Shown here piece by piece: positions 28,449 through 58,970 of a stretch of DNA of 64,000 nt. The stretch is from Candidatus Uhrbacteria bacterium (GTDB taxonomy: Bacteria; Patescibacteriota; Patescibacteriia; 2-12-FULL-60-25): NCBI GenBank assembly GCA_003576745.1, contig QEVR01000002.1:237884-301883 (forward strand). The letters run 5' to 3'. The translations under genes and the position numbers were made by a program. Position 1 is the stretch's first letter; each line of letters opens with the position of its first letter. The notes under the pieces are model-generated. The model was not told the origin of the DNA and ran no database searches. It was given only the letters and a program-made list of their open reading frames with translations.

Positions 28449-28476
28449 ACATCCCGGTTTGCCGGGATGTTTATTT
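28448..28476 (+). terminator. Rho-independent terminator of clpC
   Basis: Perfect 10-bp hairpin AACATCCCGG-TTTG-CCGGGATGTT followed by TATTT, beginning at the last base of the clpC stop codon. Confidence 0.85.
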
Positions 28477-28499
28477 CGGGCTGGGACGCGCGCGCATGC

Positions 28500-28505
28500 T
28501 ACACT
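28500..28505 (+). promoter_or_regulatory. -10-like box directly before the 28512 start
   Basis: TACACT ends 6 nt before the ATG at 28512 and just after the clpC terminator, so transcription would begin at or next to the start codon. The same spacing is found before several other genes in the window. Confidence 0.45.
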
Positions 28506-28511
28506 TTTCTC

Positions 28512-29381
28512 ATGCCAGACGGGAGACGAACGGGTCCTGAATCCGGAGCGCGGCCGGCGCCGCGCGGTGCACCTGCGGGAGATTCGTCGCGGATGCGATT
28601 CGCATCCACACTCGCGGCCCAGCAGGCCGGAGACCGCATTGCCGGAGGAGGTGCCGCCGATGAAATCGGCGGCGAAGTTGGGACGGGACGGAGCGCCGAA
28701 GAACCCGTGTTTCTGGAGCTCCCGACCAAAAGCTATACGGCGCGCTCCACCGAAGAGGAACAGGAAATCGCCCGCCAGCAGGCTATGCTGCAAACGGCGA
28801 GACGCTTTGTGGAACCCGGCGGTCCGCCGCCGCAAACCGAAGCCGCACCGGGAGAAGAACGGCAGCGGCAAGGCGAAGCTCCGGCCGAAGCGGGCCCCTC
28901 CGTGGCGGAGCCTGCAAGGCAAGCACGCATTCAGGCGATGCTTCAAGAAGCACAGCAGGATGCCCGCGGCCAAGAGGAACAGGAGCAATTGAGTAAGCTT
29001 GAGGAGGCGGCAAAGCGCTTTCAGAGCCAGCGCCAGCAGGCAATACGGATAAGCAAAATGTCCCGTAATGTCATGAAGGCAGTTCAGATCGGCGGCGGGG
29101 CATCCGTTATCACGATTATTACCCTCATTATCCAGGTGAATCTGGAAACCCTGAATAAATGGATCACGCAGATACGAATTCCCTTTCTCTATGAAGTAGA
29201 GAAACCTCCGAAACTCGGACTGGATGACGGGTTTACCTGCTGCGTGGACTGCATTGTGTCTTACATGTGCCTAACAACGCTTGCGCAATTCATCCTGATC
29301 GTCATTATCATCGGCGTCATTACCGCGGCACTCACCCAGCTTCTTGGACCTTTGTACGACTTTTTGCGCCCTCTCTTTTAG
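28512..29381 (+). CDS. Membrane protein with disordered N-terminus, secretion-cluster
   Basis: 289 residues from ATG 28512 (MPDGRRTGPESG). The first about 130 residues are Gly/Ala/Glu/Pro-rich and probably disordered; residues about 130-190 form a Gln/Glu/Arg-rich coiled coil (ARIQAMLQEAQQDARGQEEQ). Two hydrophobic helices follow (about 195-215 and 255-280), with a short segment between them holding CCVDCIVSYMC. The C-terminus ends in a hydrophobic LLGPLYDFLRPLF. No family recognised. Its place at the head of the pilin-like cluster and two-helix C-terminus suggest a membrane component of the same machine. Confidence 0.65.
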   Translation: MPDGRRTGPESGARPAPRGAPAGDSSRMRFASTLAAQQAGDRIAGGGAADEIGGEVGTGRSAEEPVFLELPTKSYTARSTEEEQEIARQQAMLQTARRFVEPGGPPPQTEAAPGEERQRQGEAPAEAGPSVAEPARQARIQAMLQEAQQDARGQEEQEQLSKLEEAAKRFQSQRQQAIRISKMSRNVMKAVQIGGGASVITIITLIIQVNLETLNKWITQIRIPFLYEVEKPPKLGLDDGFTCCVDCIVSYMCLTTLAQFILIVIIIGVITAALTQLLGPLYDFLRPLF

Positions 29382-29419: not shown

Positions 29420-30649
29420 ATGTCCGATCGACTCAAACGGATTCTTTTTATCGCATTTTTCATTGTCTTCTCTATTGGCATCGGAGGCGCTATCTACATG
29501 TATTTTTTCCGGCCCGTACCGGCCCCGACTCCGGTTGTGCCGCCGGAGGAGCTTGGCGGCGCATTGCCCGGCGCCGGCGAAGGCGCTCCCGGCATCCCCG
29601 GCGAAGTCCTTCCGCCTGGCGCGCTCCCCTCGGCCGAGGCCGTACCGGGCGCCGTCGCGCCCACGCCAGTGTCAGAGCTTCAAACGGTCATTCTGAACGA
29701 GGGAATCTCCAACAATGTCTCGCTCTCCTCCGACGGCAGAAGCGCGCGCTATTACAGTCCGGAGGATTCAAAATTCTATAAGGTGAATGCGGACGGGCTT
29801 ATTACCGCCTTAAGCGACCAAACATTTCCGAGCGTGGAATCGGTTTCATGGGGGCATACAAGAGATCAGGCAATTCTCTCATTCCCAGACGGGTCGAATA
29901 TCTATTATGACTTTGCGAGCGGAAAGCAAAAGACGCTTCCCCAGCACTGGAATGACTTTGATTTTTCGCCGGATGACAAGAACATCGTGGCAAAGAGCGA
30001 TGCCGTAGCGCCGGAATCCCGCTTTCTCATTGTCGCCGATCCGGACGGAAGCAACCCGCGCGCCATCGAACCGCTCGGAAATAACAGTAATAAAACCTTC
30101 CCCGTGTGGACAGACAATAAACAGATTATCGCCTATGCCACGGTGGGCGAGGCCAAGGGGTTCGACAGGCAGGAAATCATCATGATCGGGCAGAACCATG
30201 AAAACTTCAAAGGCCTCCTCGTGGAAGGACGAGGCTTTACGCCGCTCTGGTCTCCCACGGGACGGCAAATCGTGTACAGCGTATGGAATGCGGAAAGCGG
30301 TTTTCGTCCGGAACTGTGGACAAGCGGCGGATCAGCGGAAAATATGAATCAGAACCGCATAAAGCTGGGCATACAAACATGGGCGGATAAATGCGTCTGG
30401 GCCAATGAAACAACGCTCTATTGCGGCGTCCCCTCATCACTCCCCTCCGGTGCGGGCCTTGAACGCAGTTTATTTACGAATACCGTGGATAATGTGATGA
30501 AAATTGATCTTGCTACCGGCGAACAAATTCAACTCGGGTCGCCCGGCACGGGCTTAAGCGTCACGAATCCCGTTATTGTCGATGAGGGCAGATATCTGAT
30601 GTTCCGCGACGCCGCCACAGGCGGCCTGTATCGCTTCCGCCTATTCTAA
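29420..30649 (+). CDS. Membrane-anchored beta-propeller (TolB/WD40-like)
   Basis: 409 residues: N-terminal membrane anchor (about 8-29), a Pro/Gly/Ala-rich stalk (30-85), then a beta-propeller domain with TolB-like repeat words such as SLSSDGRSARYYS, VSWGHTRDQAILSFPDGS, DFDFSPDDKNIVAKS and PLWSPTGRQIVYS. It should sit on the outer face of the membrane and bind protein or glycan. TATACT (29405-29410) lies 9 nt before the ATG. The downstream DsbA-like gene follows after 8 nt, so they are probably co-transcribed with the pilin-like genes. Confidence 0.75.
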   Translation: MSDRLKRILFIAFFIVFSIGIGGAIYMYFFRPVPAPTPVVPPEELGGALPGAGEGAPGIPGEVLPPGALPSAEAVPGAVAPTPVSELQTVILNEGISNNVSLSSDGRSARYYSPEDSKFYKVNADGLITALSDQTFPSVESVSWGHTRDQAILSFPDGSNIYYDFASGKQKTLPQHWNDFDFSPDDKNIVAKSDAVAPESRFLIVADPDGSNPRAIEPLGNNSNKTFPVWTDNKQIIAYATVGEAKGFDRQEIIMIGQNHENFKGLLVEGRGFTPLWSPTGRQIVYSVWNAESGFRPELWTSGGSAENMNQNRIKLGIQTWADKCVWANETTLYCGVPSSLPSGAGLERSLFTNTVDNVMKIDLATGEQIQLGSPGTGLSVTNPVIVDEGRYLMFRDAATGGLYRFRLF

Positions 30650-30657
30650 TCCATACC

Positions 30658-31389
30658 ATGAGTCGCCAGCGCTTGGTGCTTTTCAGCCTCCTCACCGTCC
30701 TCTTCGTGGGCGTGGGCATGCTGTATTTCACCATGGTGTGGAGGGAGTCAACGACGCGCTTTCGTACCGGACTCCCGATTCCGAAACATATCCTCCCCGA
30801 CGAATTGAAAACCGCGAATGACCTGATTCCGCAAGGACCGCCGCAGGCTCCGGATATCCGCCCCACCGACCCCGTGCTGTCCGGCAATGCGCAAAGCCCG
30901 GTAACCCTCATAGTATTCGGCGACTTTGAATGCGGGGTATGTAAAGACCAAGCAGTCGCCATTGAGGAGAGCCTTGCAGCTATCGGGAACCGGAATCTTG
31001 TGCGTGTAATTTGGCGAGATCTTCCCCTGATAAACCAGCATGCTCGCGCCATGTCAGCCGCAACGGTCGCGGAATGCGCCGGACGCCAGGGCCGATTCAA
31101 ACAGATGCACGATCTCCTGTTTTCCCAAGCGAATACCTTTTCGGATGATGAGTACCTCTCCTTTATGCGCCGTCTGAACCTGAATCAGGAAGATTTTCTC
31201 GTGTGCCTGCGCGACCCGGCCATTTCGTTCCGTCTGAATGGAGACATCGAAGATGCGCGTAAGCGCGCCATCGGCGAAGTACCGACCATGTTTATCAATG
31301 GCCAGCCGATCGCGGGCTATGTGGACGCGGACACCCTCACGGCCATCTTGAAACGCGAAACGCAAAAGGCTTCCTCCAATCCATCATAA
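30658..31389 (+). CDS. DsbA-like thiol oxidase, membrane anchored
   Basis: 243 residues: N-terminal membrane helix (about 6-26), then a thioredoxin-fold domain of the DsbA/DSBA-like (thioredoxin_4) type. Active site FECGVCKDQ, Cys94 and Cys97, and the cis-proline loop EVPTMFINGQP near residue 211. It probably forms disulfides in exported proteins. Its TAA overlaps by one base the ATG of the next gene, a Cys-rich secreted pilin-like protein, so the oxidase is translationally linked to its likely substrate. No DsbB/VKOR partner is seen in the window. Confidence 0.88.
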   Translation: MSRQRLVLFSLLTVLFVGVGMLYFTMVWRESTTRFRTGLPIPKHILPDELKTANDLIPQGPPQAPDIRPTDPVLSGNAQSPVTLIVFGDFECGVCKDQAVAIEESLAAIGNRNLVRVIWRDLPLINQHARAMSAATVAECAGRQGRFKQMHDLLFSQANTFSDDEYLSFMRRLNLNQEDFLVCLRDPAISFRLNGDIEDARKRAIGEVPTMFINGQPIAGYVDADTLTAILKRETQKASSNPS

Positions 31390-32882
31390 TGCCATTGTTC
31401 GCCGCGCGGATGCTCATCATCGGCGGATGCGCATCCGCCCTGTTTTTTGCAGGTGCGCTCGAGGTACGAGCACAGACAGCATGCTGTGAATGCCACCCTC
31501 CGAATGATCCGAATACCTCAAGCTGCCTGACCGTGCAGGTATCAAAACTGAATGCGGAGGACGATTGCGTTCCGCTTCCGAACAATGTAGGGCTCGCGAA
31601 TGGCTGGACATGCAAAAAAACGCCCCTTTCCTCAACAAAATGCAAAGCCGTAAGCGCCGGGGGCGTGTGCAAAACCACGCCGGTGGATGCGTATTCCATG
31701 GTGGGCGAAGCCGTCGCCGGCTCGACCGCCGCGCCCGCGCAATCGAAACCGGCCCCTGCCATTCTTCCGCAGCTCAACACCAAGATTCCCGGACTCGTGT
31801 TGAACGCAGGGGACGGAGAATCATCCAGCTTGCTCGCGCAATATATTTCAGGCGTCTACCGGTATGCCGTTTCCATTGTAGCCATTGTCTCCGCAATCAT
31901 GTTCATTTACGGCGCCTTTTTGTATCTCGTGTCCGGCGCCACGTCGCAGCAAATCCAGAAAGGAAAAGATATTATGCTCGACGCCGTTGTGGGGCTGATT
32001 CTCGTCCTTTCCGCAACAGCCATTCTCCGAACGATCAATCCAGCAACGATACGCCTGAATGCGCTCAACATCTCTTTGATCGTTCCGATCGATTATCAGT
32101 TCCGCGGCGATGAGGGCCTAGAGGGGACTGGGGCCGCGGGCGAACCAAAAGAAGCGATCGTCCAGGCGGTGATCGAAGGCTCGAAACTGGCGGGGGTCGA
32201 TCCCTGTATCATGCTTGCCATTTGCGAACACGAAACCGGCTTGCGCTCCATCTGGAACGGATGGCCAAACAACCCCAAAGAAAATGCCATCGCCTTTGGT
32301 CCGTGCCAGGTGCTTGCCACAAACTTTCACGATCAAAGTCCGCTCGCCAAAAGACTTCGAAAAGAATTTCCAGATTTTCCCGAAGGGGTAGCGCCGGATC
32401 CGCGGCAAATGTCAAAAACCGCGAAACTTGTTATCGGCGACTGGTTTTTGCAGAACCCAAAAGCCGCCGCCTTTGCGGCAGCGGACATTTTTCGGAGCGC
32501 CTCCTATCGCGGCAATGAGCTCGTGGGCGTGGCAGCCTTCGGAGCCGGAGGCGGGTCCATACAAACCTGGAGAACCGCGACGGCGTGCAGCGTCAAAAGC
32601 GGCGTGAAGATTTCCGGCGGCGGTGATGCCAAGGCATTCGCCGATTCCTGCATTCCAAACGAGGTGGCGATCGTTTCGAAGATAACAGACAAGAGACCTG
32701 AAAAATGCCCGGAGAGCAATTATGAATGTGTTGATTTGAAAGCCGACAAAACCGCGACGCTGCGAGGCCATTGCCGGAACAATCCGAACCAGGAATGCAA
32801 AGGCATGAAAACCAGGGATTTCGTTCAATATGTGATTAAAGCGTATCCGAGAATGGTTCAAAAATACCGCTGTGCTGGTTAA
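31389..32882 (+). CDS. Pilin-like (VirB2/TrbC) protein fused to lytic transglycosylase-like domain
   Basis: 497 residues. Signal peptide (1-29, ending EVRAQ). Cys-rich domain about 30-100, opening CCECHPPNDPNTSSC. A conserved lead-in (AILPQLNTKIPGLVL), then a VirB2/TrbC-like core of two hydrophobic helices at about 156-184 (YAVSIVAIVSAIMFIYGAFL) and 197-216 (DAVVGLILVLSATAILRTI) joined by a short polar loop with GKD. From about 255 a soluble domain starts with AVIEGSKLAGVDPCIMLAIC and CEHETGLRSIWN, resembling SLT lytic transglycosylases (candidate catalytic Glu280 or Glu282), with AFGPCQVL after it. Related to the two following genes through the first half only. I infer a secreted membrane subunit carrying a peptidoglycan-cutting head. 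Confidence 0.75.
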   Translation: MPLFAARMLIIGGCASALFFAGALEVRAQTACCECHPPNDPNTSSCLTVQVSKLNAEDDCVPLPNNVGLANGWTCKKTPLSSTKCKAVSAGGVCKTTPVDAYSMVGEAVAGSTAAPAQSKPAPAILPQLNTKIPGLVLNAGDGESSSLLAQYISGVYRYAVSIVAIVSAIMFIYGAFLYLVSGATSQQIQKGKDIMLDAVVGLILVLSATAILRTINPATIRLNALNISLIVPIDYQFRGDEGLEGTGAAGEPKEAIVQAVIEGSKLAGVDPCIMLAICEHETGLRSIWNGWPNNPKENAIAFGPCQVLATNFHDQSPLAKRLRKEFPDFPEGVAPDPRQMSKTAKLVIGDWFLQNPKAAAFAAADIFRSASYRGNELVGVAAFGAGGGSIQTWRTATACSVKSGVKISGGGDAKAFADSCIPNEVAIVSKITDKRPEKCPESNYECVDLKADKTATLRGHCRNNPNQECKGMKTRDFVQYVIKAYPRMVQKYRCAG

Positions 32883-32929
32883 GTCTGCATGCTAAAATGG
32901 CTACCAGCGGCTCTGCGCGGATGAGTTGC

Positions 32930-34636
32930 ATGAAAAACACCCTTCCGTTCCCCTTTTTTCTCTTCGCTCTTGGCATTGCCGTGGCGTTGTTTATGTTGCC
33001 GGGAGCGGCAAAGGCACAGGTTTGCTGTAAATGCCATCCCCCGAATGATCCGGCAAAAACAGTCTGCCTCCAGGCCGAGGCATCGGCGCTTTTGAAAGCG
33101 AATGACTGTTCCACGCTTCCAAAAAGCACCCAGAGCGAATCCGACTGGACATGCGAAACGACTCTCTTAAGCGCCGCATTCTGCAAACCTATTTCCGAGA
33201 ACGGGGTGTGTGCCGAGGGGCCGAAGGCGGCATCGGTAGTCTTGGCCGGAGAAACGGCGTCCCAGGCTCCGGCGCCGAAAAAACCGGGAGCGGCTATCCT
33301 TCCGGTTCTGAACGTGAATATTCCGGGCCTTCAGCTCAAAACCGAAGGCGGCGCGTCTACCCTGCTCGCCCAGTATATTGCCGCCGCGTACCGATATGGC
33401 ATTTCCATCGTGGCAATCGTGTCGGCGATTATGTTCATCTACGGCGCTTTTCTGTACCTCGTATTTTCCACGGCTGGCAGCGTAACACAAGGAAAGCAGA
33501 TTATGCTGGATGCGGTAATAGGCATGATGCTCGTTCTTTCCGCCCAGCTCATTCTCCGGACGGTGAATCCTGACCTGGTAAATCTGAAGGGCCTCGATAT
33601 TACGGAAATCAACCCGCGCGACGCATTTACCGACGCCGCCCTGGAGCTCGCCCGCGTGGAACGATATGCCCGAATCGGGCTCGTGGAAGTTCCCGTGCTG
33701 GACATAGAAACGGGCGAAATTGTGGCGCCGACCGCGCCCGTATCCGGCAAACCGGGAGAGGTCGCCAAGGATCAAAAAGGGGATCTTATTGCGCAGGGAA
33801 CATGTCCGCCGGACATGGTGCCGATTCCCTTTAGCGCCGCATATCCCAAAGGGCGCGTGGAATCGTTCTGCATGGACCGTTACGAAGCGCCGAATCAGCA
33901 AGGGGTCAAACCCATACGCGGCGCCACTGAATGGGAAGCGGAGTGGTATTGCAAGGAGCGCGGGAAACGGCTCTGCAATTCCAATGAATGGGTCCGCGCT
34001 TGTTTGGGACCGGATGGGGCGAATACGTACGGCTATGGTCCCACGTTCGTGCAGGGAAGAATAAAGGACGCGCTAAAAAAACGGCCTGACGGGCTCAATG
34101 TCGGCGCGACGGTGTCGACAGGAAAACCGCCCGCGCCGTGCAATTATGATACGAATACTCCGGGATTCTTTCCGGGCTATGAAACGACCTTTTCGCCATT
34201 CGCCATAAAATATCCCACAAAGCGCAATGCCGATTTGAGCATTCTGAATCCGGGCAATCCCCGGCTTTCGGATTCCGTATACGTTACGGCATTCGAAAAA
34301 TTCAAATCATTTTTGGCGAAATACGACGGTTCCGAACCGAGCGGCGCCAGGCCGGACTGCAAGACGCCGGAAGGCGTGTATGATTTGACGGCGAATGTGT
34401 CGGAAATGACCGTCAAAGACCAATACGCCAATTTATCTGCCGATGAACGCGTTGCGCTTCCGTCGCAGCCCAGGGCGTATAACTGGTCGGGATTCAACTG
34501 GAGTCCAATTCCGCACCTTGCGAATTTTGACGCGAAACCCGTCTGCACCTTTGTTTCAGGCGGCGGCCACGGCGCCGGCGATGCATGGCGCGATTACATT
34601 AACGGCTTCCGATGCTGTTTAAACCTGCAACAATAA
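32930..34636 (+). CDS. Pilin-like (VirB2/TrbC) protein fused to FGE-sulfatase-like domain
   Basis: 568 residues from ATG 32930 (MKNTLPFPFFLFALG); the frame opens at 32897, but the signal peptide fits 32930. Signal peptide ends GAAKAQ. A Cys-rich domain (CCKCHPPNDPAKTVC) is homologous to that of the gene before, then AILPVLNVNIPGLQL, and the two-helix core at about 150-215 (YGISIVAIVSAIMFIYGAFL, LDAVIGMMLVLSAQLILRTV). From about 297 an FGE-sulfatase/SUMF1-type domain: MVPIPFSAAYPKGRVESFC, FCMDRYEAPNQQ, WEAEWYCKERGKRLCNSNEW, YDLTANVSEM and the terminal GGHGAGDAWRDYINGFRCC. Such folds modify or bind proteins outside the cell, e.g. as C-type-lectin-like adhesins. Convergent with the next gene, 1 nt apart. 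Confidence 0.78.
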   Translation: MKNTLPFPFFLFALGIAVALFMLPGAAKAQVCCKCHPPNDPAKTVCLQAEASALLKANDCSTLPKSTQSESDWTCETTLLSAAFCKPISENGVCAEGPKAASVVLAGETASQAPAPKKPGAAILPVLNVNIPGLQLKTEGGASTLLAQYIAAAYRYGISIVAIVSAIMFIYGAFLYLVFSTAGSVTQGKQIMLDAVIGMMLVLSAQLILRTVNPDLVNLKGLDITEINPRDAFTDAALELARVERYARIGLVEVPVLDIETGEIVAPTAPVSGKPGEVAKDQKGDLIAQGTCPPDMVPIPFSAAYPKGRVESFCMDRYEAPNQQGVKPIRGATEWEAEWYCKERGKRLCNSNEWVRACLGPDGANTYGYGPTFVQGRIKDALKKRPDGLNVGATVSTGKPPAPCNYDTNTPGFFPGYETTFSPFAIKYPTKRNADLSILNPGNPRLSDSVYVTAFEKFKSFLAKYDGSEPSGARPDCKTPEGVYDLTANVSEMTVKDQYANLSADERVALPSQPRAYNWSGFNWSPIPHLANFDAKPVCTFVSGGGHGAGDAWRDYINGFRCCLNLQQ

Positions 34637-34637
34637 T

Positions 34638-35915
34638 TTACGGCGCAGACGTCGAGGGACCAGATACAATGGGACGGGCTATCAACGTAAGCGGATAATA
34701 ATTCCCGCATGTCGTTTTGAGGCAATACGTCGCAAATTTCGTTCCGGCACGGACGTCTCCTTGAATAACCCTAGCCAGCCCATTCCCGGACCACCCAAGA
34801 AAAACCGACGCATGTTCTCCTGTACAAGAAGAATTCCCTGTATAAATAAAAATGATATCTCCAGGCTGAAGCAAATCTGCCCAGGAATTCGGATACCCGG
34901 ATCCGCCCGCGGCAATAATTACGGGTTTTGCACGTGCAATCGCGGCGCCGCGCCCTTCCACGCAGTCCGCTTTTATATAGGCTTTGCAATCTTTGTCCGA
35001 ATCACACCGTAACCCCCTGAGTTCCGAAGCTTTTATGCGATATGAAAGCGATTTGATCGCAGTGCTCGTTTTCGACTTTTCGTGAGGGAGACATATTGTT
35101 TTTGCTCCAAATAAGCATGACTGGTCTCCGACGCCCGCAAGTGTCCAGAGCGTGCCGGCTGTTTTCCCGCAAAAACCGAGATTTTTTTTACAGTCCGCCG
35201 CGATCTGGCTTACAAATAAGAGTCGTTCTTGAAATGTATTCCCCTGTATCAGGGGTATCACTTTTTTATAAAACTCGATGAGCCCGGTAGTTGACGCAAG
35301 TTCCGCGGGACAGGCTCCGGATGTTACGACCGGCGCCGGCGCGCCAGCTGGCGCTTCCGTACCGCTCACGGTAACCGATGGCGCAGTAATCGTAGGACCG
35401 GACGTATCATTCGGAGAAAGGCCCATATAGAAATCGGAGAATTCAATCGAACTAACTTCCGTGACTGTAAGCCCCTTCACCTTCAACAGGTCGGGATTCA
35501 CGATATTCAGAATGGTATGCGCCGCCAGAATAATGAGCATGCCGATGACAGCGTCGGACATGATTTTCTTCCCGCTCTGGATCTGCGGAAGCGCTGAACC
35601 CATGAGATACAGAAAAGCCCCGTAAATAAAAGCTATCGTGGCAACGACCACGGTTACGGTGATCAGATAGCGATACGCGGCATCCACATACGCGGCAAGA
35701 AATGGAATTTGTATGACATTCCCCGACCGAAGAATGGGATATTTCGTAAAATCAAGGCCGGGAATCTGAACATTCAATGCCGGCGCATAATACTTTTGCG
35801 TCGATTGGGCAAAAACCGATTGAGCAAAAACCGTCAAAAAAAATCCAAGGAAAACCATGCAAAAAAGAAGCCGTGCGCAATGAACAGCGGCCCGGATGAT
35901 TTTATCCGCATTCAT
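34638..35915 (-). CDS. Pilin-like (VirB2/TrbC) protein fused to NlpC/P60-like domain
   Basis: 425 residues. Signal peptide (1-36, ending SVFAQ), no Cys-rich N-domain, then NVQIPGLDFTKYPIL and the two-helix core (YLITVTVVVATIAFIYGAFL; SDAVIGMLIILAAHTILNIV), clearly homologous to the two genes on the opposite strand. From about 205 a soluble region with ten or more cysteines; the end (about 340-425) has WADLLQPGDIIFIYTG and GEHASVFLGWSGNG, the strand-loop-His arrangement of NlpC/P60 or CHAP amidases. The catalytic Cys is not certain. Probably a third exchangeable head on the same membrane core, acting on peptidoglycan. Confidence 0.7.
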   Translation of the reverse strand: MNADKIIRAAVHCARLLFCMVFLGFFLTVFAQSVFAQSTQKYYAPALNVQIPGLDFTKYPILRSGNVIQIPFLAAYVDAAYRYLITVTVVVATIAFIYGAFLYLMGSALPQIQSGKKIMSDAVIGMLIILAAHTILNIVNPDLLKVKGLTVTEVSSIEFSDFYMGLSPNDTSGPTITAPSVTVSGTEAPAGAPAPVVTSGACPAELASTTGLIEFYKKVIPLIQGNTFQERLLFVSQIAADCKKNLGFCGKTAGTLWTLAGVGDQSCLFGAKTICLPHEKSKTSTAIKSLSYRIKASELRGLRCDSDKDCKAYIKADCVEGRGAAIARAKPVIIAAGGSGYPNSWADLLQPGDIIFIYTGNSSCTGEHASVFLGWSGNGLARVIQGDVRAGTKFATYCLKTTCGNYYPLTLIARPIVSGPSTSAP

Positions 35916-36122: not shown

Positions 36123-36143
36123 ATGCCATGCCAAGATACGGAA

Positions 36144-37514
36144 ATGCCGAAATCTCCGAGACAGGTTTATGCCTGCGCAACATGCGGCGCACAATACCCG
36201 CGATGGACGGGGCGCTGTTCGGAATGCGGGGCCTGGGGAAGCGTTGCGGAGGGGTCGGAAGCGGAACCGGACGAAAGACCATCGCGCCTTTCCGGCGCAA
36301 AAAAAGGCGTGGTTCAACCATTCGCGTCTCTCAAAGCTCAAAATAATGGCCCGATGCAGTCTTCGGGTCTCGCGGACATTGATCGCGTACTCGGAGGCGG
36401 CTTTGTGACCGGAAGCGTCACGCTCGTGGGCGGCGAACCCGGCATTGGAAAATCCACGCTTCTCGCACAGGTGGCCTTGAATCAAAGCGCCGCCGGAAAA
36501 CGCGTGCTCTATGTGACGGGAGAAGAATCGCCGAGCCAAGTGGCGCTTCGCCTTCAGCGCATGATCTCGAAGGTACCCCCGTCTCTGGCATTCTTGGATG
36601 CGACCGACGCATCTGTGATTGCAGGAACGATTCAGGATGAAAAGCCGGAACTGACCATTGTGGATTCTGTGCAGTCGCTTCGCGTGCAAGATATTCCGGG
36701 AGAGGCCGGAAACATATCGCAGGTGAAAGCGAGCGCGGCCGTGGTCACCGAAGCTGCCAAACGCGCGAATGTTCCGGTCGTCCTTGTGGGACAAGTGAAT
36801 AAAGAAGGCGATATTGCCGGACCGAGACTTTTGGAACATCTTGTGGATACCGTGTTGATGCTGGAAGGCGAGCCCCAGCACCAGTTCAGGATTTTACGGG
36901 CGATCAAACACCGCTTCGGCCCCGTGGATGACGTAGCTGTGTATCGCATGAAAGAAACCGGGCTTGAGCCGGTACTTGATCCTTCAGCGGAGCTGTTGCG
37001 CGACAGGCCCAATGCTGTTTCCGGCTCCGTCGTTACCTGCCTGCTCGAAGGACATCGTCCCCTGCTTCTGGAATTGCAGGCGCTTGTATCGCCGGCAGGC
37101 TATGGCACGCCGATACGCCGCGCCGCAGGCGTGGATACCGGACGCCTCGGTTTGCTCCTTGCCGTGCTCGCCCGCCGTGCGGGCGTAAACGCGTTGGATA
37201 AGGACGTGTATGCGAATGCGGCCGGAGGCCTAAAGGCGAAAGAGCCGGCCGTGGACCTTGCGCTCTGCCTCGCGATTGCATCCGCCGTATCGGATATTGC
37301 CGTCCCATCGAAAACCGCCGTCTTCGGCGAAATCGGCCTTGGCGGCGAGGTGCGCCCTGTCGCCCTGCCGGATATGCGCATAAAAGAAGCCGAGCGCCAC
37401 GGATTTACGACCATTCTGCTTCCGAAGGGGTCGGAATATCGTGACGCGGATATGGCGCGTATCATCGAAGTCTCGACCTTGCGCGAAGCCATCGACAAAG
37501 CGTTTGGAGGGTAA
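36144..37514 (+). CDS. radA: DNA repair protein RadA
   Basis: 456 residues from ATG 36144 (MPKSPRQVYACATCGAQYPRW), which aligns with the usual RadA start; an in-frame ATG at 36123 adds seven residues. RadA is a hexameric branch-migration helicase in recombination and, in some species, transformation. Seen: C4 zinc finger (CATCG and CSECGAW), RecA-like core with Walker A GGEPGIGKST (near residue 96), the RadA-specific KHRFG (near 255), and the C-terminal Lon-like domain (AVFGEIGLGGEVRPV). Confidence 0.95.
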   Translation: MPKSPRQVYACATCGAQYPRWTGRCSECGAWGSVAEGSEAEPDERPSRLSGAKKGVVQPFASLKAQNNGPMQSSGLADIDRVLGGGFVTGSVTLVGGEPGIGKSTLLAQVALNQSAAGKRVLYVTGEESPSQVALRLQRMISKVPPSLAFLDATDASVIAGTIQDEKPELTIVDSVQSLRVQDIPGEAGNISQVKASAAVVTEAAKRANVPVVLVGQVNKEGDIAGPRLLEHLVDTVLMLEGEPQHQFRILRAIKHRFGPVDDVAVYRMKETGLEPVLDPSAELLRDRPNAVSGSVVTCLLEGHRPLLLELQALVSPAGYGTPIRRAAGVDTGRLGLLLAVLARRAGVNALDKDVYANAAGGLKAKEPAVDLALCLAIASAVSDIAVPSKTAVFGEIGLGGEVRPVALPDMRIKEAERHGFTTILLPKGSEYRDADMARIIEVSTLREAIDKAFGG

Positions 37515-38061: not shown

Positions 38062-40140
38062 TTATTCCTGATGGCTTGTTTTGCGGACTCGTTCGACGAG
38101 TGTATGGAGCTCTGGAACCTGCGCGAGTTCCGTATCCTTGTTGAGGAGTTCATCCGCGGCTTTGCCGGCCATGGCCATAAGATCGATATCACTCGTGCGC
38201 GCCGCGCGGAACACGGCCTGCCCGCTCTGCTCGGTACCAAGCACATTTCCCTCCCCGCGACGCTGTAAATCTTCTTCCGCGACGACAAATCCGTCATTCG
38301 TACGTTCCAGAACCTTAAGCCGTTCCAACGCAGGCCCATCCGCATCGGAGAGCAGATAACAAGATGATACGCGACTGGATCGTCCTACGCGTCCCCGCAA
38401 TTGATGGAGCTGCGCCAGTCCGAAACGTTCCGCCCCTTCGATAAGCATCACCGTGGCTTCGGGTACGTCCACGCCCACTTCAACAACCGTCGTTGCAATA
38501 AGAACGTCCAGCAATCCCTCCGCGAAACTTTGCATGACTCCATCTTTGTCCGCCGGCGGCATGCGGCCGTGCAGGAGTCCGATGCGAAGGCCCTTGAGCG
38601 GCCCTGCCGCGAGACGTTTCGCCTCTTCGGTTGCGGATTTCACGCCAAGTTTGTCGGATTCGTCGATGATCGGACATACCACAAAAGCTCGATGGCTTTT
38701 TTTCACTTCCGCGACCACGGCTGCATAAGCCTGCTCGCGGTCCGCGCCGGTGAGGACCTTGGTTTTGATCTCCATCCTCCCGCTGGGCTTTTGCCGGATG
38801 ACGGACACGTCAAGATCCCCATAGAGCGTAAGCGCAAGCGAACGCGGAATGGGCGTTGCGGTCATGGAAAGGAGATGCGGCACAAGGCCGTCCGGACGCG
38901 GCGCAACCGCAAGCGCCTCGCGCTGGGTTACGCCGAAACGGTGTTGTTCGTCCACAACCGCAAGCGCCGTATCCGGCGGCAGCATATCGCGCTCCAAAAG
39001 AGCATGCGTACCAATGACAAGAATGCGTCCTTCGCGGATACGCTCCCTTGCTTCATGGAGCTTCAGCGTTTTTTCTTCTCCTCCTTCCCAGAGCCGCTTC
39101 TCACTCGACGTAAGAAGCAAAACCGGCGCCTGTCCGGTTTCCTGTAAAAAGCGTCGGAGAGACCGTCCATGCTGTTTGGCAAGAATTTCCGTGGGAGCCA
39201 TGAGCGCGGCGCTTTCGCCCGCCCGATACGTTAGCGACATAAGGAAGGCGGCAACCACGGTTTTGCCGCTGCCCACGTCCCCCTGGAGAAGCCGCCGCAT
39301 CGGGCGTGTTTGCTGCATGTCCAGAATAGACGCCCAGGCCGCCCTGCGCTGGTCGTCCGTAAGCGGAAAAGGCAGGGAAGCCACGAAACGTTTTGCAAAC
39401 CGTTCGTCGAATGACACGGACGGCGCACCCGCCTTGTCCGCTTCGTGCCGCGCGGACCCGAGCGCCAGGCGGTACACCAGTAGCTCGTCAAAAGCAAGAC
39501 GCCGCCTTCCCTCCTCGGCAATGCCGAGCGTGCGCGGACGGTGAACGGCTTTGTAGGCATCCGTACGCGTAAGGAGGCCGCATGTTTCGCGAATGTCCGC
39601 CGGCAGCGGATCAGGCGCCTCGTCAAGATTTTCAATGACGCGCGCCATGAGTTCGCGCATGGTTTTTTGCGCAACCGATCCCATAAGGGGATATACCGGC
39701 GCAACCGTTCCGCTTGTCACTCCTTCGGAGTCAATGGGCTCCCAAATGGGATTGCTCATTTGTCGTCCGAATTTCGGGCGAAATTGGATAGTCCCCGACA
39801 AAAAAATCTCTTTCCCGGCCGGCAGTTTTTCCAAAAGCCACGGCTGATTGAACCAGATGACGCGAAGCGAGCCCGTGCTGTCCTTCAGGCTTGCGCGGAT
39901 AATGGTGATGCGCCGCCGGAATCCCGGCTGTTTACCGATGCTCTCGACGCGGACCTTGAGCGTCACTGGCTGGCCTATGGGCGCGTCCCCAATCGATACC
40001 GTGCGACTGTAATCGTCATATCGCCGTGGAAGCATGTCCAACAGGTCGCCGACGGTTTCGGCGCCATAGCTCTTGATGGCCCGTTTTTGCGCGGCATTTA
40101 GCTCCGGTATTTCGCGCACGGAATCGCCTGTTTTCAGCAT
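38062..40140 (-). CDS. recG: ATP-dependent DNA helicase RecG
   Basis: 692 residues, typical RecG length. It remodels stalled replication forks and Holliday junctions. Seen: N-terminal wedge/OB domain (about 30-170), Walker A LLQGDVGSGKTVVAAF (near 291), motif II as VVDEQHRFGVTQ (near 398), motif III LLSMTATPIPRSLAL, the motif VI region GRVGRSSRVSSCYLL, and the C-terminal TRG-like segment GEGNVLGTEQSGQAVFR. TAAGAT (40152-40147) ends 6 nt before the ATG, suggesting a leaderless transcript. The gene and the GIY-YIG gene are bracketed by inverted family-2 copies. Confidence 0.96.
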   Translation of the reverse strand: MLKTGDSVREIPELNAAQKRAIKSYGAETVGDLLDMLPRRYDDYSRTVSIGDAPIGQPVTLKVRVESIGKQPGFRRRITIIRASLKDSTGSLRVIWFNQPWLLEKLPAGKEIFLSGTIQFRPKFGRQMSNPIWEPIDSEGVTSGTVAPVYPLMGSVAQKTMRELMARVIENLDEAPDPLPADIRETCGLLTRTDAYKAVHRPRTLGIAEEGRRRLAFDELLVYRLALGSARHEADKAGAPSVSFDERFAKRFVASLPFPLTDDQRRAAWASILDMQQTRPMRRLLQGDVGSGKTVVAAFLMSLTYRAGESAALMAPTEILAKQHGRSLRRFLQETGQAPVLLLTSSEKRLWEGGEEKTLKLHEARERIREGRILVIGTHALLERDMLPPDTALAVVDEQHRFGVTQREALAVAPRPDGLVPHLLSMTATPIPRSLALTLYGDLDVSVIRQKPSGRMEIKTKVLTGADREQAYAAVVAEVKKSHRAFVVCPIIDESDKLGVKSATEEAKRLAAGPLKGLRIGLLHGRMPPADKDGVMQSFAEGLLDVLIATTVVEVGVDVPEATVMLIEGAERFGLAQLHQLRGRVGRSSRVSSCYLLSDADGPALERLKVLERTNDGFVVAEEDLQRRGEGNVLGTEQSGQAVFRAARTSDIDLMAMAGKAADELLNKDTELAQVPELHTLVERVRKTSHQE

Positions 40141-40854: not shown

Positions 40855-41587
40855 ATACGGCGACGCGTTCCGTCTGGGATCGCATCTGCTTTTGTGCGCC
40901 GATTCCCGGAACAAGGAGATGGTCGCAGGGCTCATCGGCACGCGGAAGATCAAGGCCGTCATCACCGACCCGCCGTATGGCGTGGCGGTCACCGAAAGCA
41001 AAGAAGGCTTCCAGACGCTCGCGAAGAACAAGCCGATCTTAAACGACCATCTGCAAAGTGACGGGGAATATCGGGCGTTCACACGCGACTGGATGGAGGC
41101 GATACGTCCGCACCTTGAGCGCAAGAACTGCTTCTACGTCTTCAACTCGGACAAGATGGTATTCGCCTTGCGCGACGGCATGCACGACGCGGGATTGAAG
41201 TTCGGGCAGCTCCTAATCTGGGTAAAGACGCATGCGGTCATCGGGCGCATGGACTATGCGCCCCAGCACGAGCTTATCGCATACGGCTGGCACGGGACGC
41301 ACGAGTTCTTGAAATCCAAAGACAAAAGCGTCCTAGTCTGCCCGAAGCCGCAGAAAAGTGCGATGCATCCTTCCACCAAGCCGATTGATCTGATCAGACG
41401 GCTTGTCTTGAACAGCACACGGATTGACGACGTGGTCTTCGATGGATTCCTTGGATCCGGCACGACGCTCCTCGCGTGTGAACAGACCAAACGCATATGC
41501 GTTGGGGTCGAGATGGACACGGAATACTGCGAGACGATACTTGACCGCTTCGAGAAGCTGACAGGAATAAAGCCGGAGAAGCTATGA
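40829..41587 (+). CDS. DNA methyltransferase (N6_N4_Mtase family), phage-type
   Basis: 252 residues. It begins with the linker seen in ParB-methyltransferase fusions (KYGDAFRLGSHLLLCADSR), then catalytic motif IV as VITDPPYGV (residues about 45-53) and, towards the end, the AdoMet motif VFDGFLGSGTTLLACEQ. Order IV before I is that of the beta class. DPPY points to adenine-N6 or cytosine-N4 methylation. No restriction partner is present; with the terminase genes downstream (4-nt ATGA overlap) it is probably a phage-encoded methylase protecting DNA or regulating packaging. Confidence 0.9.
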   Translation: MKKSSSSIKYGDAFRLGSHLLLCADSRNKEMVAGLIGTRKIKAVITDPPYGVAVTESKEGFQTLAKNKPILNDHLQSDGEYRAFTRDWMEAIRPHLERKNCFYVFNSDKMVFALRDGMHDAGLKFGQLLIWVKTHAVIGRMDYAPQHELIAYGWHGTHEFLKSKDKSVLVCPKPQKSAMHPSTKPIDLIRRLVLNSTRIDDVVFDGFLGSGTTLLACEQTKRICVGVEMDTEYCETILDRFEKLTGIKPEKL

Positions 41588-42015
41588 GTAGAAAAGATTC
41601 GATCCAAGCGAGACAGGGCAAAATCAAGGATGCCCTTCTCGAACAGCTTAAGCGTACGCCGACCTTGGAAACCGCCTGCCAAAAAGTCGGCGTCGCCAGA
41701 GCCACCGTCTACCGCTGGATCGCGGCAAGCAAAAAGTTTGCCAAGGATATCGATGAAGCCCAGCGGGAAGGAAGGCTCTTCATGTCGGATGTTGCAGAAA
41801 ACCAGCTCTTCTCCTTGATCGGCGAGAAGAAGATCGAGGCGATACGGCTCTACCTCACCACCCATAACCCGCGCTACGGCAACAAGCTGGAATTGTCCGG
41901 TTCGCTCACGGCCAAGGACGAACAACTGAGTAGGTCGCAAAAGAAACTCATACGAGAAGCGCTCAGGCTCTCGTCACTCAATATCCATGGAAAAGACCAA
42001 AAGAAAAACGGATAA
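41584..42015 (+). CDS. Terminase small subunit-like DNA-binding protein
   Basis: 143 residues, mostly helical, with a helix-turn-helix near the N-terminus (TLETACQKVGVARATVYRWI) followed by FAKDIDEAQREGRLFMSDVA and YLTTHNPRYGNKLELSG. Size, HTH and its position overlapping the methylase (ATGA) and the large terminase gene (29 nt) identify it as the small subunit that recognises phage DNA for packaging. Confidence 0.78.
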   Translation: MSRKDSIQARQGKIKDALLEQLKRTPTLETACQKVGVARATVYRWIAASKKFAKDIDEAQREGRLFMSDVAENQLFSLIGEKKIEAIRLYLTTHNPRYGNKLELSGSLTAKDEQLSRSQKKLIREALRLSSLNIHGKDQKKNG

Positions 42016-43447
42016 CGAGGGTCAAATGTTCGAAGATATCCTTTCGGATCAGCTCTTGCGAAAAAGCTTGGTTCAGAAGAGCCTCGAATACTTCTTCCCG
42101 ATCTACCTCCATGAGTACATGGAGTTTGAAAACGCGCCCTTCCACAAAGAGATGATGCGACTATTGCAGGACGAGCGAATCAAATTCCTGACGTTCGTCG
42201 CCTTCAGAGGATCGGCAAAGTCGTCCATCGTCACCGTCGGATACGTCCTCTGGTCGCTCCTCGGCGTACAGCAGAAGAAGTTCATCGTCATCTGCTCGCA
42301 GACGGAACAGAAAGCGCAGGCGCACCTGGCGAACATCAAAGACCAGCTGAAGCATAACGATCTATTACGGAAAGACCTCGGGCCGTTCGAGGAGGAAAAG
42401 AATAAGTTCGGCACGGCGACCGCCATCATCGTGAAGCGGCTGAATGTGAAGATCATGGCAAGCTCGACCGAGCAGAGCATCAGAGGCGCGCTGCACAACA
42501 ACCACCGGCCTGACCTCGTGATCCTCGACGACATCGAGACGACGCAGTCCGTGAAGACGCGGGAAGGCAGGAACAAAACCTTCGAATGGCTTGTGGGCGA
42601 GGTGATCCCCGCCGGAAGCAAGAAAACCAGGTATGTCAGCGTCGGGAACCTGCTCCATGAGGATTCCGTGCTCAAGCGACTCCAGAAGCGCATGGAAAGC
42701 GGTGACATGAAGTATGTCCGAAGTGCCTACCGCGAATACCCCATCGTCGACAGCAAAGGCGATCCGCTCTGGCCCGGAAAGTACCCGACGCGGGAAGACG
42801 TCGAAGAAGAACGTGAGAAGACCATGGATGAAGTGGCGTGGCAGAGGGAGTTCATGCTCAAGATCATCTCCGCTGAAGAGCAGATCATCAAGCCCGAATG
42901 GATCGCTTTCTACGACAAGCACCCTACGGACAAGCTGCGCGGGATCTATATCGGCATCGATCTTGCCGTGAGCGAAAAGGAATCGGCGGACTGCACGGCC
43001 ATTGTCGTTGGGTACATATACGGCATCGGAAAGAACATGAAGATCTATATCCAGAGCCATCCGTACAACAGCAGGTCATCGTTTCCCGTCCATGCCGAAT
43101 ACATCAAGGACAAAATCGCGGCAGAGAAGCTCGTCCACAATCGAGTGAAGGTCTATATCGAGGACGTCGGCTATCAGAAGGCGCTCATCCAGTACTTTGA
43201 AAGCCAAAAGTATGACGTCGAAGGCGTGCCCGTCGGCAGGAGCGACAAGGCCGCACGGCTGCGGCTCGCAACCCCGCTCCTGAAAGAGGCTCGCGTCCTG
43301 TTCCCGGAAGACGGCTGCGAAGAGCTGATCGATCAGCTACTCGGCTTCGGCAAGGAGCGTCACGACGACCTCGCGGATGCGTTCTCAATGCTTGTACTAA
43401 AGGCCGTTGAGAACAATCCGTCGCACAACGGAATCATCTTCGGATGA
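41987..43447 (+). CDS. Phage terminase large subunit
   Basis: 486 residues. ATP-driven packaging motor and nuclease. ATPase domain: Walker A-like FRGSAKSSI near residue 74, FIVICSQTEQKAQAHL, Walker B VILDDIETTQS near 178. RNase H-like nuclease domain: YIGIDLAVSEKESADC near 322, VYIEDVGYQKALIQYF, and RHDDLADAFSMLVLKA near 460, supplying the acidic metal ligands. Complete by length and motifs. No portal, capsid, tail or integrase gene follows; the next sequence on this strand is a convergent gene fragment. It is therefore a packaging module without the rest of a prophage. Confidence 0.92.
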   Translation: MEKTKRKTDNEGQMFEDILSDQLLRKSLVQKSLEYFFPIYLHEYMEFENAPFHKEMMRLLQDERIKFLTFVAFRGSAKSSIVTVGYVLWSLLGVQQKKFIVICSQTEQKAQAHLANIKDQLKHNDLLRKDLGPFEEEKNKFGTATAIIVKRLNVKIMASSTEQSIRGALHNNHRPDLVILDDIETTQSVKTREGRNKTFEWLVGEVIPAGSKKTRYVSVGNLLHEDSVLKRLQKRMESGDMKYVRSAYREYPIVDSKGDPLWPGKYPTREDVEEEREKTMDEVAWQREFMLKIISAEEQIIKPEWIAFYDKHPTDKLRGIYIGIDLAVSEKESADCTAIVVGYIYGIGKNMKIYIQSHPYNSRSSFPVHAEYIKDKIAAEKLVHNRVKVYIEDVGYQKALIQYFESQKYDVEGVPVGRSDKAARLRLATPLLKEARVLFPEDGCEELIDQLLGFGKERHDDLADAFSMLVLKAVENNPSHNGIIFG

Positions 43448-55833: not shown

Positions 55834-57765
55834 TTATTTTCCTGCTTCAATATCGGGCGCCGCCGGACCCTCACGTTCTTCACCGAGCGCTTTTTCAAAT
55901 TCGCGTTTTTCCTGCTCGATCTTAAGCAGCTGCTTGGGATCAGTCGTGACAATCTGGTCTTCCGCGTACGACGCCACAACCTGAATGGCCGCATGTTTGT
56001 CGCCGGCGAAGAAAATGCCTTCTCCCCTTCCGCTCTCGAGAAGCAGGTATTTTTCCGATTGCGTAAGCAAAAAGGTTTTCGCGATCAAGTCGATGGATGC
56101 CGGACTCTGACGGAGAAGCAGCTGAAGCGAAGAGTTTGTCACGATTGCCTGCCCGTACGGGGACGTAAGGAAGTCGTTCACATCTTGCGTAATGGTGGTA
56201 ACGCCGAGATAATATTTTCTGCAGCGCTTCACGAGGGCGAAAATAAATTTCGCGGAGTCTTCGTGCTGCATGAGCCACCAGGCCTCGTCGATCACGAGAA
56301 TGCGCTTTTTGCGTTCGGAACGGACGGTATTCCAGATATAGTTGATAATGGTGTAAATCGCCATGGGGCGGAGTTCGTCTTCCAGATCGCGCACCGAAAA
56401 GATCACCAGAATATTGTCCATGTTCACCGTGGTTGGCGAATTCAGAAGCCCCGAGAATGTTCCTTCGGTGTACTTGCGGAGACGAACCACAAGATCTTCG
56501 GTTCCCTGCATGCCCTCCAGAATATCCTGGAAATCCTGGAGAATGGGCGGCTCAACCGCGCTTAAGTCCGCGCCGGCTACGATGTCTTTTTTCGCGTATG
56601 TTTCGAGAAGCGCGCGGTCGAGAATGCTGTCCTCCTGCACCGTAAGCTTGCCGAGCATAAGGCGGAGCAGGCCTTTTAAAATGATGACCGCGCTGCGAAT
56701 GACGTCCTCGGTGGAAACGGCTTCGCCCGACGGTTTCGGCAAATCGAATGGATTGATTTTTGCGGACGACGCGAGCGAAATATTGATATAGGTTCCTCCC
56801 ACCGCGTCGGACAGATGTTTGTATTCCATTTCCGGGTCAATCACGATTACCTCGGTGCCGAGCATGAGCGACCGAAGAATCTCGAGCTTGATGGCATAGG
56901 ATTTACCGGCGCCGGAGGTGGCGAAAATGACGGCATTGCCGTTTTGCAGCGAAAACCGGTCGAAGATGATAAGCGAATTGTTGTGTCGGTTCACGCCATA
57001 CAGGATTCCCTGATCCGACGTAAGCTCCGCGGAGGTAAACGGAAAACTCGACGCAATGGGCGACGTGCTCATGTTGAACGTAATCATGAGCTCGTCATTT
57101 CCGAGCGGCATGGTGGCATTGAATCCTTGCTCCGCCTGGTAATAGGCGCGTTTCGTATAGATGAGCATGGAACCGAACGTGGTTTCCACCTGATTGGACA
57201 GCCGATTGAGTTCTTCCACGTCGGTAGAGTAAAACGTGCAGTAAAAGCCGAACTGGAAAAAGTGTTCGATCCCCTGCGTAAGGTCGTCGCGGAGCTGTTC
57301 GATATCCCGAAGTGCCGTTTCCGAGGCCGGATCGCGCGGCTTCCCCGCCTCCGCGTCCATGGTGATCTGGGCTTCCACCACACCTACCTTGCGCTTGAGT
57401 TCTTTTAAAATGACGTCGGCCTTGATGGGATAAAAGAACATGGCGATATCGAGCTGCGCAGACAGGTTGATGATCGGCGAAGCCCAGCCCACCGTGACAT
57501 AGCGCGGATAGGTGACGATGAACAGCGTCCGACAAAACACATCGCCCAGCCGCACGTATGACGGATCTATTTTCATGGAGGCCGGCGCGATCAGATCCTT
57601 GATGGATGCGATGCCCTTGCGGTACACGCGCGCCTCCTCCAGGGCGACTTTTTCTTCCTCGGCTTTCTTTTTTAATTCTTCTTCCTTTTTGGGCTTGGTG
57701 TATTTTACGCCCCCCGCCGTGAGCGCCGAGGCATCAAAACCCTTTTTCTGTACGTCAATGGCCAT
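55834..57765 (-). CDS. virB4: VirB4/TraC-family secretion ATPase (C-terminal ATPase part)
   Basis: 643 residues. The energising ATPase of type IV secretion. It starts with basic-acidic helices (KKEEELKKKAEEEKVAL) and a partial N-domain (RLGDVFCRTLFIVTYPRYV), then the RecA-like ATPase: Walker A VIFATSGAGKSYAIKLE near residue 285, EVIVIDPEMEYKHL, Walker B KRILVIDEAWWLM near 491, and VTTITQDVNDFL. C-terminal segment EKYLLLESGRGEGIFFAGDK is typical of TraC/VirB4 homologues in Gram-positives. The gene upstream encodes what looks like a separate N-terminal domain, so VirB4 function is split. Confidence 0.92.
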   Translation of the reverse strand: MAIDVQKKGFDASALTAGGVKYTKPKKEEELKKKAEEEKVALEEARVYRKGIASIKDLIAPASMKIDPSYVRLGDVFCRTLFIVTYPRYVTVGWASPIINLSAQLDIAMFFYPIKADVILKELKRKVGVVEAQITMDAEAGKPRDPASETALRDIEQLRDDLTQGIEHFFQFGFYCTFYSTDVEELNRLSNQVETTFGSMLIYTKRAYYQAEQGFNATMPLGNDELMITFNMSTSPIASSFPFTSAELTSDQGILYGVNRHNNSLIIFDRFSLQNGNAVIFATSGAGKSYAIKLEILRSLMLGTEVIVIDPEMEYKHLSDAVGGTYINISLASSAKINPFDLPKPSGEAVSTEDVIRSAVIILKGLLRLMLGKLTVQEDSILDRALLETYAKKDIVAGADLSAVEPPILQDFQDILEGMQGTEDLVVRLRKYTEGTFSGLLNSPTTVNMDNILVIFSVRDLEDELRPMAIYTIINYIWNTVRSERKKRILVIDEAWWLMQHEDSAKFIFALVKRCRKYYLGVTTITQDVNDFLTSPYGQAIVTNSSLQLLLRQSPASIDLIAKTFLLTQSEKYLLLESGRGEGIFFAGDKHAAIQVVASYAEDQIVTTDPKQLLKIEQEKREFEKALGEEREGPAAPDIEAGK

Positions 57766-58481: not shown

Positions 58482-58970
58482 TCAGGCCTTTGCTCCGGTC
58501 GGGGCGCTCATAACCGGCCCCGATTCTTCTTCCCCTTCTTCCGGCACATACACTCCCCCTGTATTCACGGTTAGCGACAGATCGCGCAGACGCGTAGAGC
58601 CCGGACGCGCTTTTCGCGCAGGGCCTTTTTTCTCTTCCTCCACAATCAGCTGCGGTTTAATGATTTGACGCAGTTCCGCATCCGTATAGTCTTTATTCCA
58701 TACGCGCAAATTCGGCCTCGAAACGGTCTGAACGAAATTCAGGAAAAATACATGAAACGGCTGGCCGTTCACCTTGATGAAACCGAAGGCGCCGCCGATC
58801 CCCGCCGTGAGAAGCCCGAGGGGGATAAAATACGCCAATTTCAACAAACGGAATTCAAGGAACAGCAGGAAGAACGTGGCGAGGGACAAGACGAATTGCC
58901 GAACCGTAATGGGCCCGAGGATTTTATCCTCGTTTTCAATGAATTGAGGAACGATGAATTTATCCGGCAT
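58482..58970 (-). CDS. PrgI family membrane protein
   Basis: 162 residues. Starts KFIVPQFIENEDKILGPITV, the PrgI/DUF3761-like signature, with two helices (about 24-41 and 47-66) and the conserved NGQPFHVFFLNFVQ. After about 105 the tail is charged and disordered. PrgI proteins are small inner-membrane subunits next to VirB4 in Gram-positive type IV secretion. TACAAT lies 18 nt upstream of the ATG. Confidence 0.88.
   Translation of the reverse strand: MPDKFIVPQFIENEDKILGPITVRQFVLSLATFFLLFLEFRLLKLAYFIPLGLLTAGIGGAFGFIKVNGQPFHVFFLNFVQTVSRPNLRVWNKDYTDAELRQIIKPQLIVEEEKKGPARKARPGSTRLRDLSLTVNTGGVYVPEEGEEESGPVMSAPTGAKA

Follow-up and report, generated by a model that had tools for sequence, protein, structure and literature searches.

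What could a secretion-system pilin do with a large domain attached to its end? Three neighboring genes of Candidatus Uhrbacteria bacterium raise this question. They lie in a 64,000-nucleotide stretch of contig QEVR01000002.1 (positions 237,884 to 301,883), which we call the window. Small VirB2-like pilins of type IV secretion systems (T4SSs) are already known from Patescibacteria, where they occur in arrays of 2-11 with several divergent paralogs per genome (Quinonero-Coronel et al. 2025, PMC12102498). The three window proteins (P1, P2, and P3; Table 1) share a core that is homologous to T4SS pilins and then continue into unrelated C-terminal domains, or heads. We found many relatives with the same architecture and with varied heads. 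As far as the literature that we searched shows, these headed pilins would be the first modular, enzyme-bearing pilins in a T4SS.

A shared pilin core with varied heads

A check of the open reading frames (ORFs) found P1, P2, and P3 where a first-pass annotation of the window had placed them. All three proteins have an N-terminal hydrophobic segment of the signal type (by hydropathy), as that annotation had claimed. Their core consists of two hydrophobic helices with a short, lysine-bearing loop between them. The cores align readily, and they have in common a lead-in, xxIPGLxL, as well as FIYGAFLYLV...GKxIMxDAVxG...ILxxxNP. They had been described as nearly identical, but this was slightly too strong (42-63% identity to the P1 core). 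P1 matches the T4SS_pilin model (PF18895) with 32.2 bits (E = 1.2e-7), as compared to the curated cut-off of 26.6; the matches of full-length P2 and P3 are below the curated cut-off. In an AlphaFold2 model of P1, the core helices are residues 148-180 and 186-216, and the hairpin is also present in the model of P3. According to Foldseek, the P1 hairpin resembles a conjugation pilus subunit from Aeropyrum pernix (8dfu; TM-score 0.71 by target length, with a weak E-value). Comparing P1, P2, and P3 to PDB sequences with phmmer gave no match, and searches of the headed proteins against NCBIfam and PHROGs found nothing useful. Among Pfam hits to P1-P3 up to E = 1, there was no match to the N-terminal helix of type IV pilins (the N_methyl models).

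P1-P3 are headed variants within the PF18895/VirB2-like pilins, not ordinary small members. Beyond the core, they have 266-341 amino acids (aa), versus at most 25 aa in 20 short pilins. To find relatives, we used a four-sequence alignment of the core, which matched proteins in 95 of 96 related genomes, including a Candidatus Uhrbacteria record (some of these matches are short pilins). From 100 fetched regions, we obtained 146 non-redundant headed proteins, which we defined as having the core plus at least 120 aa after it; about 170-660 aa follow the core. The modular family that the first-pass annotation had proposed is present in many genomes, and the recurrence of its architecture in 146 proteins speaks against a chance arrangement. 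PF18895 matches 119 of the 146 headed cores (E <= 1e-3), and TrbC/VirB2 (PF04956) matches 6. A profile of the headed cores matches the short pilins, which were gathered with the same core model, with 99.6% probability (E = 2e-23). The headed-core profile was also run against the ORFs of the window and of the regions from its own genome, membrane proteins such as AcrB included, and matched only pilins, even at E = 10. The headed cores also have a signature of their own: where the chain leaves helix two, 123 of 146 headed cores have NP, as compared to 0 of 20 short pilins.

We then examined the heads of the window proteins, which had been described as lytic-transglycosylase-like (P1), FGE-sulfatase-like (P2), and NlpC/P60-like (P3). 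For P2, this stands: it matches FGE-sulfatase (PF03781) with 24.7 bits (cut-off 23.3; E = 2.2e-5), and its head (cluster c7) keeps the conserved landmarks of the FGE fold. This match is uninformative as to whether the P2 head is an enzyme. (We considered whether a diversity-generating retroelement acts on the FGE head, but there is no RVT_1 reverse transcriptase in the genome, which is 97% complete.) For P1 and P3, whose heads have no match in Pfam, the likeness comes from structural models instead and is weakest for P3. In the P1 model, most blocks of the head have a pLDDT above 85. Comparing this model to the PDB with Foldseek, the closest proteins are the lytic transglycosylases MltE, MltF, and Slt (probability up to 0.97, with weak E-values of 0.2-0.6). 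This is consistent with a lytic transglycosylase, if not strongly so. Glu282 of P1, which is followed by FG.C, is invariant across 8 relatives from cluster c6. The P3 model is less confident (pLDDT 70.5), and it most resembles wall hydrolases of the CHAP/NlpC type, with weak matches (E = 0.16 or worse). Cys249 and His368 of P3 are invariant across 10 relatives from cluster c4. As claimed, the three heads seem to be unrelated: profile comparison links no pair of c4, c6, and c7 (the best is c4-c6, with a probability of 9%).

Clustering all 146 heads with BLAST gave 14 clusters and 27 singletons. A few of these clusters merge in profile comparison (c2 with c8, c5 with c33, and a few others), and c4, c6, and c7 stay apart. 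The heads match Peptidase_M15 (10 heads), C39_2 (9), FGE (7), SLT (6), VanY (6), NLPC_P60 (4), and Glucosaminidase (4), where M15 and VanY overlap; Amidase_2, M23, and GDSL each match a single head. In the M15/VanY cluster (c5), most members keep the zinc-site motifs SxHxxGxAxD and ExWH. Further proteins that match PF18895 include single ones with GH18 (8e-22), M15_4 (1e-16), or C39_2 (3e-12) heads. Among these PF18895-matching proteins, the GH18 and M15_4 heads are inside the class and the C39_2 and PKD heads are outside of it. The heads belong to several folds rather than to one common fold. Many head clusters, including the commonest (c0), have no recognized domain, and several are simply cysteine-rich.

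A fixed slot and discordant histories of cores and heads

In the window, the gene order is a clpC-like gene, a membrane protein, a propeller protein with PD40 repeats, a DsbA-like protein, P1, P2, P3 (on the opposite strand), radA, and recG. Pfam supports the earlier claim that P1-P3 are encoded with their own DsbA and propeller protein. Similarly, in 32 loci the propeller gene is followed by one to five headed pilins (in most cases with dsbA ahead of them) and then by radA, often with recG after it. The order from propeller to radA recurs in four further members of the class. The heads within this slot vary. In the window's genome they are lytic-transglycosylase-, FGE-, and NlpC-like; G005 has a C39 head and another; G007 has a glucosaminidase and a VanY head; and G023 has two NlpC-type heads, a C39 head, and a glucosaminidase. 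Mostly c0-type heads are found at a second locus, which has a dsbA gene of its own.

The tree of the cores does not follow the types of the heads. Mapping head types on the core tree requires 59 changes, as compared to a minimum of 13 and a mean of 87 for shuffled labels. Clusters c4, c5, c7, and c9 are scattered on the tree as much as shuffled labels, and the cores of P1 and P2 are sisters. A caveat is that the core trees rely on 110 columns and many of their forks are unresolved. On a reduced core tree, approximately unbiased (AU) tests rejected a single core clade for c4 (p = 1.4e-5), c6 (p = 1.2e-47), and c7 (p = 6.7e-7). Excluding c0, the mean identity of cores is 52% for different heads within one genome versus 45% for the same head in different genomes. 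Either heads have been exchanged or cores have been homogenized within each genome, and these data do not separate the two. Homogenization would be expected if the cores of one genome had to fit a shared partner.

How headed pilins might work with a type IV secretion system

Several loci tie the headed pilins to T4SS genes. In L153, which is from the same class, and in L190 and L194, which are from other classes, the gene between virB4 and a propeller homolog encodes a headed pilin. (The head in L194 has a weak match to SLT_2.) In L192, the genes after virB4 encode two long proteins with a pilin core. Beside virB4, many genomes had been expected to have fusions of the core to varied hydrolases; we did find the fusions in many genomes, but virB4 is directly adjacent in only four of the regions that we read. 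Though sparse, this is direct evidence for counting headed pilins and the propeller protein among the T4SS genes.

Of 144 headed proteins, 119 have a net positive charge in the loop between the two helices; an N-terminal hydrophobic segment is present in 122 of 146, and only 6 of 146 have a transmembrane segment after the core. Given the positive loop and the rarity of later hydrophobic segments, the heads should be outside. We predict that headed pilins are exported and have two transmembrane helices, a short, positive cytoplasmic loop, and both ends outside. Cysteines are abundant in the N-terminal region (7.0 per 100 aa) and the head (4.0) and are nearly absent from the core (0.17). Of 138 headed genes, 61 are immediately preceded on the same strand by a gene for a DsbA homolog, and the two genes often overlap by a few bases. 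Together with the distribution of cysteines, this fits dedicated disulfide formation.

We think it probable that the headed pilins are exchangeable, wall-remodeling enzymes anchored by T4SS pilins. They would be exported by Sec and would retain the VirB2-like hairpin, with both ends outside. At the C-terminus they would bear one of many exchangeable extracellular domains, which are rich in disulfides and prominently include peptidoglycan hydrolases, and the dedicated DsbA would oxidize these proteins. From the cytoplasmic membrane, they would join the T4SS via the hairpin, whether as part of the channel base or as minor subunits of the pilus, and the wall-cutting enzymes would act exactly where this system contacts the cell's own wall or the host's. 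A pilus or pore subunit would then deliver the activity, as the first-pass annotation had suggested, and VirB1 activity would in effect be built into VirB2-like subunits. The enzymes that are carried would change by head exchange at the fixed locus, plausibly to suit the host. We are more tentative about a stronger version, in which transglycosylase, D,D-carboxypeptidase, endopeptidase, amidase, glucosaminidase, and GH18 heads in the channel or pilus drill through the host wall and are swapped at the fixed slot to match the current host; this is possible but doubtful.

Several observations weigh against pilin-anchored wall enzymes that work with a T4SS. Many head families have no recognized enzyme domain, and "hydrolase" is not a fitting label for all of the heads. 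Heads of the FGE type may do no more than bind ligands. Although the families that Foldseek identified for P1 and P3 are consistent, neither search gave an E-value below 0.1, and we use these matches as support only. The NP signature raises the possibility that headed cores have left the filament-forming role, and a helical filament made from these subunits alone may not have room for heads of 200-650 aa. Also, in most members of the class, the slot is not beside virB4. (In the window, virB4 is 20 kb away.)

If the hairpin were instead co-opted as an anchor only, then the headed proteins would be surface enzymes or binding proteins, for remodeling the wall or attaching to the host, with no role in a T4SS or a filament. 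The headed cores are indeed a distinct subfamily with the NP exit motif, most loci do not adjoin virB4, the fixed slot is beside radA and recG rather than T4SS genes, and separate arrays of short pilins are found in the same genome. But a plain anchor needs no conserved pilin core, nor does it need cores within a genome to be alike across different heads, and the order of virB4, headed pilin, and propeller in L153, L190, and L194 also argues against this explanation, which we consider rather unlikely. Headed pilins could also be minor or tip pilins, which perhaps has some chance of being correct. Their cores are homologous to pilins, a genome can encode several differently headed subunits, and FGE/lectin-type, Ig-like, or PKD heads would suit adhesion. 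There is a precedent in another filament, namely the modular type IV pilins (PMC8179133). However, heads of up to 650 aa would be awkward in a regular filament, as would an ORF of 1175 aa with two cores and two heads (in L053). Finally, the core might be a generic membrane hairpin that is joined to unrelated secreted domains and looks like a pilin because it is hydrophobic. P2 and P3, on their own, do score below the PF18895 cut-off, but given the PF18895 matches across most of the family, the specificity of the core model within its own genome, the profile match to short pilins, and the structural match to 8dfu, this is very improbable.

Headed pilins with a T4SS role would resemble several known systems without matching any of them. 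The pilin arrays of Patescibacteria (PMC12102498) share PF18895, the phylum, and the several divergent paralogs per genome, but the NP exit motif and the long heads are particular to our proteins, and enzymatic C-terminal heads were not reported for the arrays. The VirB1-type hydrolases of monoderms (PrgK, TraG from pIP501, and Orf14 from Tn916; PMC12857230) are also membrane-anchored and have SLT, CHAP, and LytM/M23-type domains, but each system has one multidomain enzyme on an unrelated anchor, while a genome of our set divides its single-domain enzymes among several proteins with pilin anchors. Modular type IV pilins such as PilB from Streptococcus sanguinis (PMC8179133) also combine a conserved filament core with modules grafted onto minor subunits. 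There, the module is an adhesin; here, the core is from a T4SS pilin and the module is often a wall hydrolase. The extended VirB6 proteins (PMC12857230) are another T4SS membrane component that is enlarged by large hydrophilic domains of obscure role, but VirB6 is a polytopic channel protein and its domains are not exchangeable hydrolases. The open-access literature that we searched does not describe T4SS pilins whose enzymatic heads can be exchanged. (The search was not exhaustive, and subscription journals and preprints were outside it.) Within that literature, the arrays of VirB2-like pilins, VirB1-type peptidoglycan hydrolases, and modular type IV pilins are already known, and a search for pilin-hydrolase fusions in T4SSs gave none. 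Recent surveys of T4SSs in Patescibacteria cover the short pilin arrays and the scarcity of VirB1 but do not mention such a family.

This family matters for the question of how Patescibacteria get through a host wall. T4SS genes are reported to be essential for the epibiotic growth of a cultured Patescibacterium, and VirB1 is scarce across the phylum (PMC12102498, PMC12857230). Most Patescibacteria with pilins lack VirB1, and in the cultured Ca. S. epibionticum, homologs of a peptidase and a lysozyme that are encoded just downstream of virB4 are essential (PMC12102498). A family of hydrolase-pilins offers a concrete, testable answer. It offers a reason why VirB1 is scarce, it suggests how, where they touch a host, ultrasmall bacteria of a parasitic type could get through their own wall or that of the host, and it provides candidate determinants of host range.

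Neighboring genes and other pilin-core proteins

Table 1. Headed pilins and selected neighbors in the 64,000-nucleotide window.
Feature	Coordinates	Strand	Size or basis
Membrane protein	28467..29381	+	304 aa; homolog upstream of propeller gene in 6 fetched loci
Membrane-anchored beta-propeller, PD40 repeats	29420..30649	+	409 aa; PD40 match; homolog in 44 loci/44 genomes
DsbA-like thiol oxidoreductase, overlaps P1 start	30658..31389	+	243 aa; Thioredoxin_4 6e-18, DSBA 9e-11
P1, headed pilin; lysozyme-fold/lytic-transglycosylase-like head	31389..32882	+	497 aa
P1 pilin core, two helices	31761..32081	+	Core model
P1 head, cluster c6	32082..32879	+	BLAST clustering
P2, headed pilin; FGE-sulfatase/C-type-lectin-fold head	32897..34636	+	579 aa
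P2 pilin core, 63% identical to P1 core	33296..33610	+	Core model
P2 head, cluster c7, FRCC close to its end	33611..34633	+	BLAST clustering
P3, headed pilin; NlpC/P60-CHAP-like head	34638..35915	-	425 aa
P3 pilin core	35454..35789	-	Core model
P3 head, cluster c4	34641..35453	-	BLAST clustering
radA, fixed downstream flank of slot	36123..37514	+	Homolog in 41/99 loci, 40 genomes
recG, second fixed flank	38062..40140	-	Homolog in 31/99 loci
VirB4-like T4SS ATPase	55834..57765	-	643 aa; NF045971 (CD1110-family VirB4) 5.7e-106, over cut-off; TraG P-loop
PrgI (VirB3-like) T4SS protein	58482..58970	-	162 aa; PF12666 1.3e-8, over cut-off

Of the three T4SS genes that had been reported 20 kb from the headed pilins, virB4 and prgI are confirmed, but the supposed virB6 (59467-61761) has no match in Pfam. 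We also considered the large genes at 46559 and 49798 as parts of the T4SS; these encode an AcrB pump and an HlyD-type protein instead. The propeller protein and its homologs have a conserved stretch, EKC...YCxVP, and accompany headed pilins and virB4 in distant lineages, which makes the propeller protein a candidate for an unrecognized T4SS accessory.

The whole genome (1.06 Mb) has 15 matches to PF18895. Because these include both kinds, short and headed pilins coexist in this organism. A cassette of seven pilin genes is on another contig, and a fourth headed relative (654 aa), outside the window, is directly behind a second DsbA gene. In two further proteins, the pilin core precedes either a stretch of 486 aa that contains a Big_5 Ig-like domain or a region that extends the whole ORF to about 4,000 aa. 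A 615 aa pilin-Big_5 fusion adjoins a giant ORF of about 4,046 codons (C2:156458-168598, in L019/L020). The giant ORF has a pilin core near its N-terminus, followed by sequence that looks Ig-like (part of it is masked), and is a candidate for a pilin-anchored adhesin. On contig C4, a cysteine-rich protein of 906 aa with a pilin core near its C-terminus heads a cassette of six short pilins (L018:4963-7683).

Unusual arrangements of the core were also found in other genomes. The ORF with two pilin cores and two heads in a single chain (L053:1360-4887) is from a Candidatus Uhrbacteria record. L188, L189, and L193 encode proteins of 310-370 aa with two or three tandem pilin cores, which adjoin a protein of 1,550-1,640 aa with a single N-terminal core. 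In L192, from another Patescibacterium, the VirB4 (L192:2-2503) appears by eye to have its Walker A region split by an intein-like sequence of the Hint type. Within the window, a small protein that resembles helix-turn-helix proteins or the small subunit of terminase (41584-42015) is followed by an ORF of 486 aa, and the region that contains both (41584-43447) is possibly the remnant of a prophage or a transposon.

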